Source of the DNA: Phycisphaeraceae bacterium
GTDB taxonomy: Bacteria > Planctomycetota > Phycisphaerae > Phycisphaerales > Phycisphaeraceae
Assembly: GCA_020851395.1 (NCBI GenBank)
Contig: JADZCW010000040.1
Location: 1 to 39,992, forward strand
Direction of reading: 5' to 3'
DNA length: 39,992 nucleotides
Position numbers and translations under genes: made by a program. Numbering within the stretch: the first letter of the stretch is position 1; each line of letters starts with the position of its first letter. This document shows positions 3,226-13,088 of the stretch, piece by piece. The notes below the pieces were generated by a model, which saw nothing but the letters and a program-made list of their open reading frames with translations, did not search any database and was not told the DNA's origin.

Positions 3226-3479
3226 GTCGGAATTCCGTGAAATACCCTGTCAAATCAGCCTTTTTGGGCCTCGTATCCACCGGCGCATCGCACGCCGGCC
3301 CTCTCTTTCGTACCCTCAACCGACGCTCCGCTCAAGCCGCGAGGAGCGTCCAGCTCTTTCCCCGCGAGGGCGGCGTGGTGGATCACCATGTTGTCCGACC
3401 TGGCCTTCGTTTCGAACATTCGTAGAGAGGTCCCCCCTTGAACCATCGGCACTCAATGATACGCTCTGTTTTTAAACAA

Positions 3480-3503
3480 AGCGTCAAACGATCCTTTGAC
3501 GCT
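3480..3503 (+). promoter_or_regulatory. 9-bp perfect inverted repeat AGCGTCAAA-cgatcc-TTTGACGCT in the 5' region of the corrinoid-protein gene (hairpin or operator)
   Basis: Read directly; ends 24 nt before ATG 3528. Confidence 0.6.
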
Positions 3504-3527
3504 GTTCCTTCACAGGAGTTCGTCACC

Positions 3528-4157
3528 ATGGCTGATCTGAACGCCCTCAAGGAAGCTGTCATCAAGGGCGATCGCGCCGGCGCCACCAAGCTGACCAAGG
3601 AACTGCTCGCCGCCGGCACGCCGCCCAAGGCGGTGCTCGACGAGGGACTCGTGGCGGGGATGGCGGTGGTCGGGGCGCGGTTCAAGAAGAACGAGGTCTT
3701 CGTGCCCGAGGTGCTGATCGCGGCGCGGGCGATGAAGGAGGCGATGACCATCCTTGAGCCGGTGCTGGTCAAGGCCGGCATCAAGCCCGCGCACACGGCC
3801 ATCATCGGCACCGTGCAGGGCGACCTGCACGACATCGGGAAGAACCTGGTGGCCATGATGTGGAAGGGCGCGAACTTCGGCGTGGTCGACCTGGGCACGA
3901 ACGTCTCGCCGCAGCGGTTCGTCGACGCGGCGCAGGAGCACAAGGCGTCGATCGTGGGGCTGTCCTCGCTGCTGACGACGACCATGCCGGCGATGAAGCA
4001 GGCGGTCGTCGCCCTGCGGGCGGCCAACGTGACGTCCAAGATCCTCATCGGCGGCGCGCCGGTGACGCAGGCGTTCGCCCAGGAGATCGGGGCTGACGGC
4101 TACGCCCCGGACGCGGCGAGCGCCGTGGACGTGGCGAAGAAACTCGTCACCACCTAA
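3528..4157 (+). CDS. Corrinoid (B12-binding) methyltransferase protein
   Basis: MADLNALKEAVIKGDRAGATKLTKELL...; cobalamin motif GTVQGDLHDIGKNLV (DxHxxG), VGLSSLLTTTM, ILIGGAPVTQAFA. ORF track extends to 3438; ATG 3528 preceded by AGGAG is the likely start. Confidence 0.95.
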   Translation: MADLNALKEAVIKGDRAGATKLTKELLAAGTPPKAVLDEGLVAGMAVVGARFKKNEVFVPEVLIAARAMKEAMTILEPVLVKAGIKPAHTAIIGTVQGDLHDIGKNLVAMMWKGANFGVVDLGTNVSPQRFVDAAQEHKASIVGLSSLLTTTMPAMKQAVVALRAANVTSKILIGGAPVTQAFAQEIGADGYAPDAASAVDVAKKLVTT

Positions 4158-4186
4158 CCCCCCCCACCCCCGGAAGTTTATTCCGG
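4158..4186 (+). repeat. Dispersed intergenic motif copy 2
   Basis: CCCCCCCCACCCCCGGAAGTTTATTCCGG immediately after the corrinoid-protein stop. Confidence 0.75.
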
Positions 4187-4255
4187 TTGTTCAAATGTAA
4201 CGCTTGTTTGCCGTGACCTGAGCACCGCATCGCTCAGGCTGGAGATCCTTCGCGC

Positions 4256-5314
4256 ATGGACAGGCAGTATTATCTCGACCTAGCCGCCCAGGGACTCCGC
4301 ATGCCCATCGGCACGGACCTGGTGCTGCATGAGCGGGCGGATGCCCAACAGACTGTCGTCGATGGGCGCAGGCTCGGACAGGTCGTCGTCGAGTCGGCGA
4401 GGCGGTACCGGACGCCGCTGGCGATGCCGCTGATGGACCTGGCGATCGAGAAGGCGTGGCTGCTGAGCATCCTGGGGGTGCCGGCCGAGCAGCATGAGAC
4501 GTATCAGTTTGCCACGCCGCCCGAGATCGACATGCGGAAACTTGACGCGGCGCTGGCGTCGACCGGAACGCCTCGGCTGACGGCCACGGTGGAGGCGGTG
4601 CGGCTGGTGGCGCGTGAGACGGAGCTGCTGCCGGTGGGGATGAGCATCGGGCCGTTCTCGCTGACGACGAAGATGATGCTGGACCCGATCACGCCGGTGT
4701 TCCTGGCGGGGTCGGGATTGACGGCTGCGGATGAGCCGGAGGTGGCGCTGTTCACGACGCAGCTGGCGATCAGTGAAAAAGTAATCCACGCGTCGCTGCG
4801 CCGGCAGATCGAGGCGGGGGCAAGGATGATCGTCGTCTGCGAGCCGGCGGCGAATACCACTTTTATTTCCCCGAACCAGATGGCGGACGGGTCGGATGTG
4901 TTCGAGCGGTTCATCATCGAGCCCAATCGGCGGCTGCGGAAGCTGCTGAACGAGCACGGCGTCGACCTGTTCCTGCACGACTGCGGGGAGCTGACGGATG
5001 AGATGCTGCGGCGGTTAGTTATGCTCGATCCGGCGGTCCTGAGCCTGGGGGCGAGCAGGACGCTCTGGCTCGACGCGGCGATCGTGCCCAAGACAACGGT
5101 GCTGTACGGGAACCTGCCGACCAAGCGGTTCTATTCCGATGAGCTGACGCCGGTGGGGCTGATCGAGAAGATGACGCGCGAGCTGATCGGGCGGATGCGC
5201 GAGGTCAGGCACCCGTTCATCCTCGGGTCAGAGTGCGACGTGCTCTCGGTGACGGGGGCTCACGACGCGATCAGCCGGAAGGTCCGGGCGATGCTGGACT
5301 GCCCGGCGTCCTGA
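4256..5314 (+). CDS. Uroporphyrinogen decarboxylase-superfamily protein (MtaA/MtbA-like Co-methyltransferase candidate)
   Basis: 352 aa; LFLHDCGELTDEML (H-x-C-G, putative Zn ligands) and FILGSECDV C-terminal Cys; directly downstream of the corrinoid protein. Confidence 0.87.
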   Translation: MDRQYYLDLAAQGLRMPIGTDLVLHERADAQQTVVDGRRLGQVVVESARRYRTPLAMPLMDLAIEKAWLLSILGVPAEQHETYQFATPPEIDMRKLDAALASTGTPRLTATVEAVRLVARETELLPVGMSIGPFSLTTKMMLDPITPVFLAGSGLTAADEPEVALFTTQLAISEKVIHASLRRQIEAGARMIVVCEPAANTTFISPNQMADGSDVFERFIIEPNRRLRKLLNEHGVDLFLHDCGELTDEMLRRLVMLDPAVLSLGASRTLWLDAAIVPKTTVLYGNLPTKRFYSDELTPVGLIEKMTRELIGRMREVRHPFILGSECDVLSVTGAHDAISRKVRAMLDCPAS

Positions 5315-5420
5315 ATAACGCGGCGTCGCTCACAAAACGGTGACGAGGTAACATCAGTCTGACTCTTCATGAAACATCTACACGTGCTTCCCCCTTTGAA
5401 GGGCATAAGGAGCATTCGTC

Positions 5421-6452
5421 ATGGCTCGATTCTCGAAAGCACAGGACATCAAGGTCGGCGTCATCGGGTACGGCGGCGCGTTCAACATGGGCAAGGCGCA
5501 CCTGGAGGAGATGAAGCGGGCGGGGATGACGCCCGTGGCAGTGGCGGAGATCGACGAGAAACGGCTGGAGGTCGCCCGTCAGGACTTCGCGGGGATCGAG
5601 ACGTACAACTCGGCGGCGAAGATGCTCAAGGAGTCGGACGTCCACCTGCTGGCGATCATCACGCCGCACAACACGCACGCGGCGTTGTCGCTGCAGTGCC
5701 TGCGGGCGGGGCGGCACGTGGTGTGCGAGAAGCCGTTCGCCATCACGACGGCGGAGTGCGACAGGATGATCGCCGAGGCCAAGAAGCGCAAGCTCGTGGT
5801 CTCGACGTATCACAACCGCCACTGGGACGGGTGCATCCTGCACGCCCTGGACCGAATCAAGAAGGGTGCGATCGGGCAGGTGGTCCGGATCGAGGCCCAC
5901 ATGGGCGGGCACGGCAAGCCCGGGGACTGGTGGCGGTCGAGCAAGTCCATCTCGGGGGGGATCCTCTACGACTGGGGGGTGCACCTGCTCGAGTACTCGT
6001 TGCAGATCATCACCTCGCCGATCGTGGAGGTCAGCGGATTCGCCAAGACCGGGCACTGGGCGCCGCAGAGCAAGTGGAAGCAGGACGCCAACGAGGACGA
6101 GGCGTTCGCCGTGGTGCGGTTCAAGTCGGGGCAGTGGCTGACGCTGTGCATCACGAGCATCGACGGCAACGCCAAGCGTGGGCAGATGGAGATCACCGGG
6201 ACGCAGGGGACGTACATCCTGGACTACCGCACCTGGGAGATCATCCGCCACGAGGGCGGCGAGAAGGTCGTCACGTCGGGGAAGAATCCGGATTCGCAGG
6301 GCTACCGTCTCTACCAGAACGTGGCGGACCATCTGATCAAGGGAACGCCCTTGGTCATCACCGGCGAGTGGGCGCGGCGGCCGATCCATATTCTGGACCT
6401 GGCGAATCAGAGCGTGCTCAAGGGCAAGACGCTCAGGGCCCGTTATGCGTAG
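5421..6452 (+). CDS. Gfo/Idh/MocA family oxidoreductase
   Basis: 343 aa; N-terminal Rossmann KVGVIGYGGAFNMGKAHL; AGRHVVCEKPFAITTAECDRMI with the conserved EKP motif. Confidence 0.95.
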   Translation: MARFSKAQDIKVGVIGYGGAFNMGKAHLEEMKRAGMTPVAVAEIDEKRLEVARQDFAGIETYNSAAKMLKESDVHLLAIITPHNTHAALSLQCLRAGRHVVCEKPFAITTAECDRMIAEAKKRKLVVSTYHNRHWDGCILHALDRIKKGAIGQVVRIEAHMGGHGKPGDWWRSSKSISGGILYDWGVHLLEYSLQIITSPIVEVSGFAKTGHWAPQSKWKQDANEDEAFAVVRFKSGQWLTLCITSIDGNAKRGQMEITGTQGTYILDYRTWEIIRHEGGEKVVTSGKNPDSQGYRLYQNVADHLIKGTPLVITGEWARRPIHILDLANQSVLKGKTLRARYA

Positions 6453-6479
6453 CAGGCGCCGACGCCTGCTCTTGTTCCC

Positions 6480-7565
6480 ATGCCTGCCGAACTGACCAGC
6501 CGTGATCGTGTCAACAGGATGATGGAGCACCGCGATCACGATCGGGTGCCCCGGCAGGACGGTTACTGGCCGGAGACGATCGCACGTTGGGAAGGCGAGG
6601 GGCTGCGCGGCGGCGAGCAGACGGTTCGCACGATGCTGCGACGTGATTTCGCCGGGCTGTGCTGGAGCTGGCCCCGGCCGTTCCCCGGACGCAGCGAGCT
6701 GCTGGAGGAGGATGAGCAGACACGGGTGATCATCGACGGCTTCGGACAGAAGACCCGCGAATGGAAGAGCCGCTCCGGCACGCCCGAGCACCTGGGCTGG
6801 GAGTGCGACAGCCCCCGGAAGTGGAGAGAGGTGTTTCGTCCGGCTCTGCTCGGGACGGGGCTGCATGTGAGTGTCGAGGAGTCGCGGAAGGGCTTCGCCG
6901 AGGCGCGCAGGCGCGGGGCCTGGTGCCACTTCAGCGGGGTGGAGGGGTTCGAGGCCACACGCAAGATGCTCGGCGATGAGATGTCGCTGATGGCCATGGC
7001 GGAGGACCCGCAGTGGATCCGCGACGTGTCGGCTGTGCACACCGACGTGCTGCTGCGCGATTTCAATGCGCTGTGGGACGCGGGGGTGCATCCCGACGGG
7101 GTGTGGATCTACGGGGACATGGCATTCAACCACGCGACGGTCTGCTCACCAGCGATGTACCGCGATCTGATCTGGCCCGACCACAAGCGCCTGGCTGATT
7201 GGGCGCACCAGCATGGGTGCAAGTTCATCTACCACACCGATGGACGGATCCACGCGGTGCTGGACCTTTACGTCGAGGCGGGGTTCGACTGCCTCCAGCC
7301 CCTCGAGGCCAAGGCGGGGATGGACGTCCGGGAGCTGTGCCCGGCGTACGGTGACCGGCTGGCGATGTTCGGGAACATCGACATGACCGTGGCCGGGACG
7401 AACGACCGCGAGAAGGTCGAGCACGAGGTGCGCAGCAAGCTCGCGGCAGGGATGGCAACGAAGGCGTATGCGTATCACTCGGATCACTCGGTGCCCCCGA
7501 CGGTGAGTTGGGAAACGTATCAATGGATCGTTGAGTTGCTGGACAGGTATGGGAATTATGCTTGA
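6480..7565 (+). CDS. Uroporphyrinogen decarboxylase-superfamily protein
   Basis: 361 aa; KFIYHTDGRIHAVLDLYVEAGFDCLQPLEAKAGMDVRELCPAYGDRLAMFGNID...; SDHSVPPTVSWETY. Confidence 0.88.
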   Translation: MPAELTSRDRVNRMMEHRDHDRVPRQDGYWPETIARWEGEGLRGGEQTVRTMLRRDFAGLCWSWPRPFPGRSELLEEDEQTRVIIDGFGQKTREWKSRSGTPEHLGWECDSPRKWREVFRPALLGTGLHVSVEESRKGFAEARRRGAWCHFSGVEGFEATRKMLGDEMSLMAMAEDPQWIRDVSAVHTDVLLRDFNALWDAGVHPDGVWIYGDMAFNHATVCSPAMYRDLIWPDHKRLADWAHQHGCKFIYHTDGRIHAVLDLYVEAGFDCLQPLEAKAGMDVRELCPAYGDRLAMFGNIDMTVAGTNDREKVEHEVRSKLAAGMATKAYAYHSDHSVPPTVSWETYQWIVELLDRYGNYA

Positions 7566-7711
7566 GGCGGCTGATCGCTGCTCGGAATTGATGACCGGCA
7601 TTTGACGGGCTGTCCTAGATCCGCGGAAATTCAGGAAAATGTGCCGGCCGGGTTAATCCTCGGGCCGGCGATGTGCATCCTTTCTGTGGAAGGCCTTCCA
7701 AGAGGTGCGAT

Positions 7712-8974
7712 GTGGATCAGGTGCGTGAACTCGTGACTCGGGCGGCTGCGGGCGGCTCGCTGGAGGAGCGCGTCGGCGCTTACGGGCGGCTTGTCGAGCG
7801 GTTTCGCGACATGGCCTGTGGGTATGCCTATGCGATCCTGGGCGACTTTCACCTGGCGGAGGACGCGGCGCAGGAGGCGTTCGTGACGGCCTACCGGAAG
7901 TTGGGGCAACTCGATGAGCCGGGGGCGTTCCCGGGCTGGTTCCGGAGCATCGTCCGGACGACGTGCGGGCAGATGACCCGGGGCAAGACGCTGCCGATGG
8001 CCCCGATGGATGCCGCGGGCGTGATGCCGTCGCGGGAGGACAGCCCGGGCGAACTGGCGGAGGCCCAAGAGATGCGCGACCAGGTGCTTGCGGCGATCAG
8101 CCAGCTGCCGGACGAGCAACGCGAGGTCACGACCCTGTTCTACATCAACGGGTATTCACAACAGGACATCGCCGACTTCCTGGAGGTGCCGGTCGGGACG
8201 GTCAAGAACCGGCTGCACGCCTCGCGGGGTCGGCTCAGACAAAGGATGCTGAACATGGTCAAAGACACGCTGCACGCGAGCGCTCCGGACGAGCGATTCG
8301 ACAAGAGGGTCATCGAGAGCCTGCTGGCCAGGCCGAATCTGCTGGACATCCCGGGACATCCAGTGCGGCAGGTGCTCGACGCGATCCGGCAGGCCCTGGC
8401 GGAGTTCGATTTCGTCGCGGCGGAGGATGTCGTCGTGCCGCCGGTGAAGGCCGCGAAGGAATCCTTCGCTCAGGCTTACCAGGTCGACGACGGGAAGATC
8501 CTGAGCTATGAGACGACGATCAGCCTGTTCCAGGCCGCCGAGGGCCGCCGCCCGCCGGTCCACCTGATCGTGGCGGGCCGGTCGTTTCGTGCCGTGGGTG
8601 AGACGCTCTGGCACAGCAAGACGTTTCACCAGATGGACGCTCTGGTCGTGGAGCGCGGCGCGTCGTACGAACAATGCCTGGCCTTGCTGCGGCGGGTGCT
8701 GGGGGCGGCGTTGGGCGATGAGCACTTCGTGCCGGGTGAAGTGGTTCCGCTGTGGTACGCCAAGGGGTACCGGCAGGCCATGGTCAAATCGCCCGACGGC
8801 CTGATCAATCCCGTCGGTTACGGGCGGATCGAGTCCGACGTGCTGGCGGACCTGGGCTATGACCCACAGAACGTCGGTGGGTATGCCGTGGACGTCGGGC
8901 TGGACCGGCTGGCCATGCTGCGGTGCGGGGTCCGTGACATCCGGGCGCTGTGGGAGCCGCCCTACCTTCGCTGA
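7712..8974 (+). CDS. ECF-type sigma-70 factor fused to a PheS-like (class II aaRS core) C-terminal domain
   Basis: N-terminus sigma2/sigma4: YAILGDFHLAEDAAQEAFVTAYRKLGQLDEPGAFPGWFRSIVRTTC and ISQLPDEQREVTTLFYINGYSQQDIADFLEVPVGTVKNRLHASRGRLRQRM. C-terminus: HPVRQVLDAIRQAL...RSFRAVGETLWHSKTFHQMDALVVERG...LGYDPQNVGGYAVDVGLDRLAMLRCGVRDIRALWEPPYLR aligns with PheS motifs 2 and 3. GTG start at 7712 preferred over the ORF-track start 7673. Confidence 0.85.
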   Translation: MDQVRELVTRAAAGGSLEERVGAYGRLVERFRDMACGYAYAILGDFHLAEDAAQEAFVTAYRKLGQLDEPGAFPGWFRSIVRTTCGQMTRGKTLPMAPMDAAGVMPSREDSPGELAEAQEMRDQVLAAISQLPDEQREVTTLFYINGYSQQDIADFLEVPVGTVKNRLHASRGRLRQRMLNMVKDTLHASAPDERFDKRVIESLLARPNLLDIPGHPVRQVLDAIRQALAEFDFVAAEDVVVPPVKAAKESFAQAYQVDDGKILSYETTISLFQAAEGRRPPVHLIVAGRSFRAVGETLWHSKTFHQMDALVVERGASYEQCLALLRRVLGAALGDEHFVPGEVVPLWYAKGYRQAMVKSPDGLINPVGYGRIESDVLADLGYDPQNVGGYAVDVGLDRLAMLRCGVRDIRALWEPPYLR

Positions 8975-8997
8975 ATGATCGGATCACATAACGCACA

Positions 8998-9044
8998 CAC
9001 CGGCGAGGGCATGGCCATCCGCATGCCCTCGCCGGTGATGTTTT
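8998..9044 (+). terminator. Putative intrinsic terminator (16-bp stem, 8-nt loop, followed by ATGTTTT)
   Basis: CACCGGCGAGGGCATG (8998-9013) / CATGCCCTCGCCGGTG (9022-9037), perfect complement, TTTT at 9041-9044. Confidence 0.75.
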
Positions 9045-9134
9045 GAGGTGAGGGTGGTCGGTCTCCTCTCGGTGTGCGAAACGCGTCGGCATCAGCGACA
9101 ATGTCCTGGGGCGGGATGGCTGGAGCTGGCGATC

Positions 9135-10256
9135 ATGAACACCCGTGAGCGGTTCATCGCTCAGATGCACTACCAGCCGCGCGATCGGTCGCTGATCTGG
9201 GACTTCAATTTCTGGCGTGAGACCATCGCCGTCTGGCACGAGCAGGGGCTGCCACCGCAGATCAAGCACGATTACTCCGGCGTCACCACCGACGCCTTCT
9301 TCGGGATGGACCCCACAGCCCACTGGACCGGCCACTCGGGCCTCTGCCCGGCGTTCGAGGAGAAGGTGATCGAAGACCGCGGCGACCACGAGGTCATCCA
9401 GCAGGGAACGGGCACGACGGTGCTGCGGAAGAAGTTTATGAGCTCGATCCCGATGCACCTCGGGCACACGCTCGTCGACCGTGAGAGCTGGAAGAAGCAT
9501 TACCTGCCGCGCCTCGACCCGGATCATCCGGGGCGGTTCAACCTCCAGCGGGTCCGCGAGCAGGACGCACGCGAGGAGGTGCTGCTGCTGAGCGGTGGCA
9601 GCCTCTACGGCAACCTGCGCGACTGGATGGGGATGGAGAACCTGTCCATGGTCGTCTACGACGACCCGGCGTGGTTCGAGGAGATGGTCGTGGCGCAGGC
9701 GGACTGCACCGTCGGCGTGATCCAGAAGGCCATCGAGCACGGCATCCAGCCCGACGCCTGCGGGATCTGGGAAGACATGTGCTACAACGCCGGGCCGCTG
9801 CTGAGCCCTAAGCACTTCATGCAATATCTGGTCCCACAGTACCGGCGGATCACGGATCTCTTGCACAAGATCAACGTGGACGTGGTGTGGGTCGACTGCG
9901 ACGGGTGCATCGACCAGCTCGTGCCCCTGTGGCTCGAGGCGGGGGTCAACTGCATGTTCCCCGTCGAGGTCGGCACGTGGGGCGGCGACCCGATCAAGTT
10001 CCGCAAGCAGTACGGCAGGGAGCTCTTGCTAGTCGGCGGGTTTGACAAACGCATCCTCATGCGCGGGCCTGCGGCGATCGACGCGGAGGTCCAGCGCCTG
10101 ACGCCGCTGGTCGAGGAGGGTGGGTACATTCCGTTGCCGGACCATCGCGTGCCGCCGGATGTGCCGTATGCCCACTACGTCCATTATCTCAAGCAGGCAC
10201 GGAAGGTCTGGGGAAAGGACACCAACCTGCGGCCGATGCATCCTTCGATCGCCTGA
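9135..10256 (+). CDS. Uroporphyrinogen decarboxylase-superfamily protein
   Basis: MNTRERFIAQMHYQPRDRSLIWDFNFWRETIAVW...; GIWEDMCYNAGPLLSPKHF; PLPDHRVPPDVPYAHYVHYL. ORF track opens at 9048; ATG 9135 better matches family N-termini. Confidence 0.87.
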   Translation: MNTRERFIAQMHYQPRDRSLIWDFNFWRETIAVWHEQGLPPQIKHDYSGVTTDAFFGMDPTAHWTGHSGLCPAFEEKVIEDRGDHEVIQQGTGTTVLRKKFMSSIPMHLGHTLVDRESWKKHYLPRLDPDHPGRFNLQRVREQDAREEVLLLSGGSLYGNLRDWMGMENLSMVVYDDPAWFEEMVVAQADCTVGVIQKAIEHGIQPDACGIWEDMCYNAGPLLSPKHFMQYLVPQYRRITDLLHKINVDVVWVDCDGCIDQLVPLWLEAGVNCMFPVEVGTWGGDPIKFRKQYGRELLLVGGFDKRILMRGPAAIDAEVQRLTPLVEEGGYIPLPDHRVPPDVPYAHYVHYLKQARKVWGKDTNLRPMHPSIA

Positions 10257-10289
10257 TTCTTCTTGCCCTGTTGCTGATGAGTCCGCGTC

Positions 10290-11441
10290 ATGACCATCGC
10301 CCATGCACCGATTGAGCCTATGCCGCGCCGGCCGCGATGGGAAGCCCATCTGCGGCATATCGCGGCATCACCGCTGGGGCTCTGCCCGGATTTCCCCCGG
10401 ATCGCGGAGCGATGGGAGGCTTGGTGGCATCACGAGCTGGTGGATCGGCCGCTGTTCCTGGGCAAGGTCAACACGGACGCTCGACGGGCCATGGAGAAGC
10501 GGACGGACCTACTGCACCGGCCCGACGAATGGTTCGCTGGCAAGCAAGAGGATCTCGAGCAGAAGCACTTCGTCGGGGACTGCGTGCCGAACATCCGCGT
10601 GGACTTCGGGCCGGTGCTGCTGGGCGGGCTGCTGGGGGGGCGGATGGAGTTCGGGGCGAGCACGTCGTGGACGCACCCGCACATCAACGATGACTGGTCG
10701 AACAGGCCCGGGGGGAGGATCGTCGATGGGGAGCTGTATGGGCTGCTCAAGGAGCTGTTTGAGCGCGTGGCCCGGGACGCGGCGGGGCGATATCTGATCT
10801 GCACGCCGGACCTGGGCGGGTCGGCGGACGTGCTGTCGAATCTGCGCGGCCCGGAGACGCTCTGCATGGACGTGATCGACTGCCCGCGGAACATCGCCGA
10901 GACGATCGACGCGATCTACCCGGCGTGGCATGAGGCGATCAGTGCGCTCTATGACATCGCGACGGACGCGGGGACGGGCTTGATCCACTGGCTGGAGATC
11001 TGGTCGAACAAGCCCTACATGATCCCGGCGTGCGACTTCAACTTCCTGATCGATCAGGAATCGTTCAATCGGCTGTGTCTGCCGGACATCGCGCGGCAGA
11101 CGGCGACGATCGGGCGCGGGGTGTTTCACCTCGATGGGCCGGGGGCGGCGCGGCACATCGACGCTCTCTTGGAGGTGCCGTGCCTGGAGGCGATCCAGTT
11201 CGTGCCCGGGGCGGGGTCGCCCTCGACGCTGCCATGGGTGGAGATGTTCCGGAAGATCCAGGGGGCGGGACGGTCGCTGTTTATTGTCTGCCCGCCGGAC
11301 GAGGTGCTGAGGCTCTGTCGATCGCTGCGGCCCGAGGGGCTGGCGATCCAGGTGAACTCCGGCGGGGGACCGGCTGAGTTGAACGACCTTTTCAACGCTT
11401 TTTGCAGGCAATCACTGCATCCCCGAGGCGGCGGAGGATGA
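10290..11441 (+). CDS. UroD-superfamily-like protein (divergent)
   Basis: 383 aa; PDFPRIAERWEAWWHHELVDRPLFLGKV; GVFHLDGPGAARHIDALLEVPCLEAIQFVPGAG. Confidence 0.7.
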   Translation: MTIAHAPIEPMPRRPRWEAHLRHIAASPLGLCPDFPRIAERWEAWWHHELVDRPLFLGKVNTDARRAMEKRTDLLHRPDEWFAGKQEDLEQKHFVGDCVPNIRVDFGPVLLGGLLGGRMEFGASTSWTHPHINDDWSNRPGGRIVDGELYGLLKELFERVARDAAGRYLICTPDLGGSADVLSNLRGPETLCMDVIDCPRNIAETIDAIYPAWHEAISALYDIATDAGTGLIHWLEIWSNKPYMIPACDFNFLIDQESFNRLCLPDIARQTATIGRGVFHLDGPGAARHIDALLEVPCLEAIQFVPGAGSPSTLPWVEMFRKIQGAGRSLFIVCPPDEVLRLCRSLRPEGLAIQVNSGGGPAELNDLFNAFCRQSLHPRGGGG

Positions 11442-11525
11442 TCCTGTCTGTGGGTTGCCCCTCGGCTGTGTGAGAAGCACAATGAGCTGACGCTGTTTGT
11501 TCGCCTGTTGCTTGGAGTCCTTCGC

Positions 11526-12416
11526 ATGGCCAGACCCGATCTTCTGAAACTTCTCGCCCAGCGCACCGTCCTCTGCGACGGCGGGATGGGGACGCAGCTC
11601 ATCGCGGCGGGGATGAGTCCGGGGGAGCCGTCGGCGAGGTGGAACCTGGACCACGCTGAGGTGGTGCAGGCGGTGCACCGTCGGTATCGGCAGGCAGGGT
11701 GCGATCTGGTGACGACCAACACGTTCCAGGCCACGCGGACGGCGCTGGCTCAGCACGGGCTCGAAGCGCAGACGCGGGCGATCAACCTGGCGGCGGCGAA
11801 GAATGCGCGACTCGGGGCGGGCGAGGAAACGATCGTGCTGGCGGACGTCGGGCCTTTCGGTGGATTCCTTGAGCCGATGGGGGAGACGACGGAGGACGAG
11901 CTCTCGGAGATCTTCACGGAGCAATTGATCGCCCTGCGCGACGGGGGGTGCGACGCGGTGATTGTGGAGACGATGGGCGATCCGAATGAGGCGGCTGTCG
12001 CGGTGCGGGCGGCAAAGAAGTTGGCGGATTGGCCGGTCATCGCGACGTTCGCCTTTGCGCGGACGGGAGGCGTGTTCCGCACGATGATGGGGACGATGGT
12101 GGAGCAGGCGCTCGGCGCGTTGCGCGAGGCGGGGGCGGAGGTCGTCGGGGCGAACTGCGGGACGGACCTGGAGCTTGAGGATTACGTGGAGCTGGCCCGC
12201 GAGGTGGTCAAGGCGGCGGGTGATGCAAGGGCGATCATGCAGCCCAACGCCGGGGCGCCCAAGCTCGTCGATGGGCGGAGCGTTCACCCAGCGACGGCGG
12301 GGCAGATGGCGGGATTCGCGGCGAAGTACGTCGGGGCGGGGCTGGCGATTCTCGGGGGGTGCTGCGGGACGACGCCGGAGCATCTGCGGGCAATGGCGGC
12401 GGTGGTGAAGAAGTAA
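11526..12416 (+). CDS. Homocysteine S-methyltransferase family protein (MetH N-terminal-like)
   Basis: LCDGGMGTQLIAAGM; TTNTFQATRTAL; GANCGTDLE; Zn ligand motif GGCCGTTPEHLRAM. Confidence 0.94.
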   Translation: MARPDLLKLLAQRTVLCDGGMGTQLIAAGMSPGEPSARWNLDHAEVVQAVHRRYRQAGCDLVTTNTFQATRTALAQHGLEAQTRAINLAAAKNARLGAGEETIVLADVGPFGGFLEPMGETTEDELSEIFTEQLIALRDGGCDAVIVETMGDPNEAAVAVRAAKKLADWPVIATFAFARTGGVFRTMMGTMVEQALGALREAGAEVVGANCGTDLELEDYVELAREVVKAAGDARAIMQPNAGAPKLVDGRSVHPATAGQMAGFAAKYVGAGLAILGGCCGTTPEHLRAMAAVVKK

Positions 12417-12428
12417 GGGGCGAGGGAT

Positions 12429-13088
12429 CTATCCCCCCCACCGCTCGCCCATCAGTAGCGCGGTGTTGAGGCGCTGGAGGTACTCCTTGGCGGGGATCTC
12501 GGTGGCGCCGAGCAGCGCGGTGACGGGGGTGACCATCTGGATATCGAAGAGGCTGAAGCCTCGCTCGCGCAGGCGCTCGGCCAATTTCACGACGCAGACC
12601 TTCGAGGCGTCATCGGCGCGGCTGAACATGGACTCGCCGAAGAAGGCCCCGGCGAGGGCGACGCCGTAGAGGCCGCCGACCAAGCGGCGTGATGGGGTGG
12701 AGGAATCTTCCTCAGAGGGGTCGTGTTTCCATGCTTCGACGCTGTGGGCCAGTCCGAGGCGGTGCAGTTGGGTGTAGACGTCGATGATCGCGGGGCCGAT
12801 CCAGGTGTCGGGGCGCTTGGGCGTGATCCGGGCACAGCCGGCGATGACTTGGTCGAAAGCCTGGTCAAAGGTGATGAGGTAGTCCCCGCGGCGAAGGCGC
12901 TTGGCGAGGGAGCGGGGGACGCGGAGGTTGTCGAGCTCGAGGACGCCGCGTGGGTCGGCGGTGTACCAGCGGACGTCGCCGGTGGCGGGGTCGGTCATGG
13001 GGAAGACGCCCTGGGCGTAGGCGGAGAGAACCTCCTCGACGCTGATCGCGGGGTGTCCCTCGTGCTCGGGTGAGTCGGTCTGGCCCAT
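12429..13088 (-). CDS. aat: Leucyl/phenylalanyl-tRNA--protein transferase
   Basis: 219 aa; AYAQGVFPMTDPATGDVRWYTADPRGVL; TWIGPAIIDVYTQLHRLGLAHSVEAW; GGLYGVALAGAFFGESMFSR; ASKVCVVKLAERLRERGFSLFDIQ. Confidence 0.96.
   Translation of the reverse strand: MGQTDSPEHEGHPAISVEEVLSAYAQGVFPMTDPATGDVRWYTADPRGVLELDNLRVPRSLAKRLRRGDYLITFDQAFDQVIAGCARITPKRPDTWIGPAIIDVYTQLHRLGLAHSVEAWKHDPSEEDSSTPSRRLVGGLYGVALAGAFFGESMFSRADDASKVCVVKLAERLRERGFSLFDIQMVTPVTALLGATEIPAKEYLQRLNTALLMGERWGG

Follow-up and report, generated by a model that had tools for sequence, protein, structure and literature searches.

A planctomycete ECF sigma factor fused to a PheRS-derived domain as a candidate one-component regulator

Results

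The fusion gene and its surroundings

The DNA analysed here, which we refer to as the window, is a 39,992-nucleotide stretch from a Phycisphaeraceae bacterium. It carries a gene in which an extracytoplasmic function (ECF) sigma factor is joined to a domain resembling the α-subunit of phenylalanyl-tRNA synthetase (PheRS; the subunit is PheS) (Table 1). The forward frame spanning 7673-8974 contains no internal stop codon, and the AGAGGTG just upstream of the GTG at 7712 makes this the likely start codon of a 420-residue product. Pfam searches of this protein recovered both sigma region 2 and sigma region 4 with no match to Sigma70_r3, the composition of an ECF sigma factor, and the protein scored 81 bits against the NCBIfam model TIGR02937 (cut-off 42.9). 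Within the C-terminal half, tRNA-synt_2d (PF01409) matched residues 244-416 (6e-20; 72 bits against a cut-off of 19.8), and both Pfam and an AlphaFold2 (AF2) model placed a globular C-terminal domain after sigma region 4. The original prediction, that sigma2/sigma4 signatures and a PheS-like core share a single ORF, is thus confirmed for both halves. The linker between them is partly common to HEAT-fused ECFs of the same group, and a similar linker occurs at loci L125 and L131.

Table 1. Features of the fusion gene and of the neighbouring genes in the window.
Feature	Position	Strand	Basis
B12-binding protein	3438-4157	+	Pfam
URO-D-like protein	4256-5314	+	Pfam
GFO/IDH/MocA oxidoreductase	5421-6452	+	Pfam
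URO-D-like protein	6480-7565	+	Pfam
ECF sigma-PheS fusion gene, type A, 420 aa	7712-8974	+	GTG start, open frame, RBS-like AGAGGTG, Pfam, same-junction homologs
Sigma region 2, residues 27-87	7790-7972	+	PF04542 (Sigma70_r2), 7.1e-12
Sigma region 4, residues 123-175	8078-8236	+	PF08281 (Sigma70_r4_2), 3e-14
Conserved linker RLRQRM...TLHASAPDERFDKRVIESLLARP	8231-8353	+	Alignment
PheRS-α-like class II catalytic core, from about GHPVR to the end	8354-8971	+	PF01409, PDB phmmer/hmmsearch, AF2 and Foldseek
Motif 2 region LIVAGRSFRAVGETLWHSKTFHQMDALVVERG	8564-8662	+	Alignment with 45 PheS
Motif 3 region LGYDPQNVGGYAVDVGLDRLAMLRCGVRDIRALWEP	8854-8962	+	Alignment with 45 PheS
URO-D-like protein	9048-10256	+	Pfam
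Homocysteine S-methyltransferase	11508-12416	+	Pfam

The forward-strand genes surrounding the fusion (3438-12416) probably constitute a corrinoid methyl-transfer cluster, which this copy of the fusion may serve. The opposite strand encodes, at 12429-13088 and thus 3.5 kb away from the fusion, a leucyl/phenylalanyl-tRNA-protein transferase (PF03588), an enzyme that uses Phe-tRNA; this proximity is probably a coincidence. As had been noted from the sequence by eye, no anti-sigma gene accompanies the fusion: none was found among its neighbours in the window or among the Pfam-assigned neighbours of seven other members. PheT was likewise not found among the Pfam-assigned neighbours of fusion genes. 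No conserved neighbourhood was seen, and because the surroundings differ from member to member, neither the signal nor the regulon can be read from genomic context. Two type A fusions have a nucleotidyltransferase gene (PF01909) directly downstream and co-directional (L123:5805-6626 and L055:6729-7772, both on the reverse strand). Aminoglycoside-modifying-like neighbours (NTP_transf_2 at two loci, an APH-like protein at one) were considered as a shared context and rejected, as no relationship is detectable between the two nucleotidyltransferases. A simple search for a GAAC-N17-21-(C)GTC-type ECF promoter upstream of the fusion gene found none.

Relationship of the C-terminal domain to PheS

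We compared the C-terminal domain with synthetases using both sequence profiles and predicted structures. A phmmer search of the PDB matched the window protein to E. coli PheS α (3.6e-14), and a profile built from 13 fused domains retrieved E. coli PheS at 1e-42, along with SepRS, PylRS and, weakly, HisRS. AF2 was run on five homologs. In the full-length model the C-terminal domain had a pLDDT mostly between 80 and 95; the sigma half was of low confidence, and the interface between the halves cannot be read from this model. Modelled alone, the domain reached a mean pLDDT of 83.7 and a pTM of 0.84. Foldseek searches of the PDB ranked bacterial PheRS α chains first for both the full-length model (E = 2.6e-19) and the isolated domain (E = 1.6e-18; query-normalised TM-score 0.77), followed by mitochondrial PheRS and SepRS. 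Profile and structure comparison of the C-terminal region both support a core of the PheRS α kind, as originally predicted.

The domain shares with PheS (TIGR00468, PF01409) its fold, the motif 2 arginine and FHQ block, the motif 3 arginine, and the GxG and DPxxxxG segments. It nonetheless falls well below the level of a PheS equivalog (66.7 bits against a TIGR00468 cut-off of 237.45) and is equally near SrmL (NF051887), a PheS paralog annotated as a 'PheS-related mystery ligase' (about 67.6 bits against a cut-off of 300). All 13 fused domains matched the SrmL model, the best at 2.5e-33, but this model spans no sigma domain. The HisZ model (TIGR00443) matched only 4 of the 13, weakly. Class II synthetase paralogs with other roles include HisZ, the HisRS-like domain of GCN2, PoxA/EpmA and AsnA; the fusion resembles these in reusing a synthetase core for regulation or non-tRNA chemistry, and differs in that its core belongs to the PheRS family (subclass IIc) and is joined to a sigma factor. 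A phage-borne origin of the domain is disfavoured because a scan of IMG/VR found no relative; a viral structure library returned general class II synthetases only.

Conservation of the active site

Residues are numbered after Thermus PheRS α, with positions assigned by motif and spacing. On this numbering, F216 contacts adenine, R204 and R321 contact AMP, and F258/F260 contact the phenylalanine ring (PMC8555319). In an alignment of the fused domains with 45 PheS, R204 was kept in 12 of 13, R321 in 11 and Q218 in 12, and position 216 was aromatic in 11. H212, for which we assume the role known generally from class II enzymes, was present in eight. Position E220 was E or D, and position S180 was T, in 12 of 13 each; T180, Q218 and D/E220 presumably hold the amino group. 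The window protein itself has R204, Q218 and R321, so that the motif 2 arginine, FHQ block and motif 3 arginine recognised by eye are indeed retained.

The phenylalanine pocket is a different matter. Q183 was kept in none of the 13 domains, F258/F260 were mostly gone, and E262 was gone in nearly all; the window protein has L, Y and L at F258, F260 and Q183. The pattern of residues thus indicates that the adenylate site is better preserved than the phenylalanine pocket. The FPFTEPS and GCGM segments had been reported as unrecognisable. They are degenerate in the window protein, but the homologous region is visible in homologs (L123 reads RWRGVCGCGMF in the GCGM region) and the fold runs through it. 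The NFDALNIPxxHPARDxxDTF segment of PheS is missing in type A. The N-terminal tRNA-binding coiled coil was also not found: there was no Phe_tRNA-synt_N match in Pfam, and the core starts directly after the sigma linker. As the Phe-ring pocket is lost and the tRNA-binding arm was not found while most adenylate residues are kept, sensing of phenylalanine or tRNA specifically is disfavoured; amino acid and tRNA sensing had been among the options of the original prediction.

Conservation is also uneven among members. The domain of G092 lacks both the motif 2 and the motif 3 arginine, and that of G960 lacks the motif 3 arginine. Judged by these losses, catalysis is not a common property of the fused domains, and adenylate binding may not be general among them.

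Distribution and two types of fusion

Profile searches identified the fusion in at least 12 of approximately 1,050 distinct planctomycete genomes, a lower bound because some searches scored only the best four to five candidates per genome. Carriers span the class of the window and at least two others. When 398 genomes of the class were searched with the domain profile, all matches scoring over 100 bits were either sigma-fused or cut by a contig end; ordinary PheS scored at most 88 bits, against at least 155 bits for fused domains. A linker-pattern scan of an 85,462-species genome collection returned four loci. Full-length type A homologs share 40-47% identity and an identical, in-frame junction. 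Because independent planctomycete genomes carry this junction in one frame, we excluded a frameshift or two adjacent genes as its source.

Two types can be distinguished. Type A comprises the window gene and those of G064, G075, G092, G228, G255, G910 and G960, with a linker mostly resembling TLHxNAPDERFxKRVIExLLxRP followed by HPVR; the genes of G075 and G255 are cut by contig ends. Type B, found in G000, G015, G134, G429 and G975, differs in its linker, and its sigma half has diverged further. The genome of the window (G000) carries both types, its type B gene being divided between contigs C261 and C183 with an 89-nt overlap, and the same split is seen in G015. The closely similar type B genes of these two genera (G000:C183/C261 and G015:C27/C43; loci L058, L135, L059 and L136) have different downstream neighbours, and both assemblies break at the same 89-nt stretch. 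This may reflect either recent transfer or close kinship combined with co-assembly. Differences between the pair at codon positions 1, 2 and 3 number 37, 22 and 99, a pattern as expected under purifying selection.

We also considered that the fusion replaces the cell's own PheS, and rejected this since G015, G228 and G910 carry ordinary PheS alongside it. Ordinary PheS was not seen in the genome of the window, which is 66% complete.

Trees of the two halves

We reconstructed one tree from the 13 fused domains and 45 planctomycete PheS and another from the sigma halves. In the domain tree, all fused domains fell on one side of a branch with 100/100 support, apart from the ordinary PheS; type B formed a clade (100/99), and several terminal branches were long. 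In the sigma-half tree, by contrast, the fusions were not one clade (AU p = 0.0146). Type A sigma halves were interleaved with ECFs bearing HEAT (PF13646), TPR, T2SS-F (PF00482) or unassigned C-termini that look GNAT-like by eye; the sigma half of G064 was sister to two of the GNAT-like kind (99/99). The simplest reading of these trees is a single origin of the regulatory PheS domain, which later either passed from one sigma backbone to another or came and went as one of several C-termini on a shared backbone; support inside type A is modest. Because type A sigma halves mix with ECFs carrying HEAT, TPR and T2SS-F-like C-termini, the PheS module looks like a sensor that can be swapped.

Further architectures were encountered during these searches. 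Single ORFs at L134:4672-6198 (-) and L128:4008-5693 (+), from two genera of one family, begin with an ECF sigma domain and continue into a complete FliA/sigma-28-like sigma factor; with two Sigma70_r2, one region 3 and two Sigma70_r4 matches, they are apparent double sigma factors. Same-group ECFs at L132:3409-4713 (+) and L148:2766-4409 (-) carry a domain like that of type II secretion protein F (PF00482), and an ECF sigma with many ankyrin repeats lies at L133:2940-5189 (-). Large C-termini with no Pfam assignment occur in same-group ECFs at L145:1103-2248 (-), L146:3559-5514 (+), L126:3422-5395 (-) and L130:4250-5374 (-), the last with a weak match to GNAT (6e-4); L145/L146 have a sigma half whose sister is one fused to PheS.

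Discussion

The explanation that we favour for these results is that the fusion is a one-component, ligand-gated ECF sigma factor with a PheRS-derived C-terminal half, to which we assign a probability of roughly 0.6. This reading is supported by the fold, the recurrence of the fusion, the retention of adenylate residues, the monophyly of the domain against the non-monophyly of the sigma halves, the purifying-type codon pattern of the type B pair, and the lack of an anti-sigma gene among the Pfam-assigned neighbours. The sigma2-sigma4 half would bind the RNA polymerase core and a promoter, while the class II core, having abandoned tRNA charging, would stand in for the missing anti-sigma factor. 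The domain would respond to a small molecule that it binds, for which the likeliest candidates are a non-phenylalanine amino acid, the adenylate of such an amino acid and an adenine nucleotide. Once bound, the ligand would shift the packing of the domain, possibly of a motif 1 dimer, against sigma2-sigma4 and so gate access to RNA polymerase or the promoter, much as the SnoaL-like extension does in ECF41. Exchange of the module between ECF backbones, which the trees support, would be expected of a portable sensor. The architecture and the idea of a fused sensor, both put forward in the original prediction, are now backed by profile, structural and comparative evidence, and from these we infer the sensor role itself. 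The more detailed proposal, that a retired PheRS core has moved between at least two ECF backbones and gates the sigma factor through a new amino-acid-like or adenylate ligand, is more tentative, at somewhat less than even odds.

One may postulate instead that the domain binds no small ligand and is a protein-interaction module, using its motif 1 interface to contact PheT or a different synthetase subunit, or else contacting an RNA polymerase partner, such that sigma activity would mirror the condition of the translation machinery. The normal pairing of PheS with PheT is established, the HEAT, TPR and ankyrin extensions of same-group ECFs are themselves interaction modules, and some members lack the catalytic arginines; a scaffold, however, would have no need of R204, R321 and an aromatic at position 216, kept in 12, 11 and 11 of the 13 domains, and we regard this scenario as unlikely. 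Somewhat less probable again is that the domain is still an active ligase, which would adenylate an amino acid and attach it to a protein as a switch by modification; the target might be its own sigma half or RNA polymerase. PoxA/EpmA and AsnA are examples of class II paralogs without a tRNA-charging role, several members including that of the window keep the motif 2 and 3 arginines, H212 and FHQ, and the domain scores equally high against SrmL and PheS. Set against this are the loss of Q183 throughout and of E262 nearly throughout, of H212 in 5 of 13 domains, and of the motif 3 arginine in two members.

Lastly, the fusion is rare (12 of approximately 1,050 genomes) and known from draft assemblies only, with several copies broken at contig ends, as a non-functional or drifting gene or an assembly artefact might be. 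Yet distant families and classes carry the junction unchanged in full-length open frames, and the type B pair shows a purifying-type codon-position bias; both speak against this, and we consider it very improbable.

The ligand-gated reading has precedents among ECFs with regulatory C-terminal extensions, and at least 26 ECF groups are cited as having N- or C-terminal extensions (PMC8999054). The fusion shares with the C-terminally extended groups a sigma2-sigma4 unit with a fused domain, the lack of a neighbouring anti-sigma gene and the same proposed intramolecular control (PMC8999054), and differs in that its extension is a class II synthetase core. Control of the sigma factor by this extension is a prediction from analogy. 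The word synthetase is absent from the ECF reviews searched, PMC8999054 among them, and the literature searched contained no paper pairing an ECF sigma with a PheRS or synthetase domain; the architecture may already be catalogued in the full ECF classification.

It is well known that regulators can be built from synthetase cores, but we found no example in the literature searched of one wired straight into a sigma factor. This planctomycete ECF group swaps C-terminal modules on closely related sigma backbones, and the coupling of sensor to sigma is therefore testable by domain exchange. If the ligand does prove to be an amino acid or adenylate, the state of translation or of the amino acids would set transcription initiation with no part played by ppGpp, a riboswitch or an anti-sigma factor. 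A single polypeptide would then link RNA polymerase directly to amino acid or aminoacyl-adenylate status, a parallel at the level of transcription initiation to sensing by T-box or GCN2.
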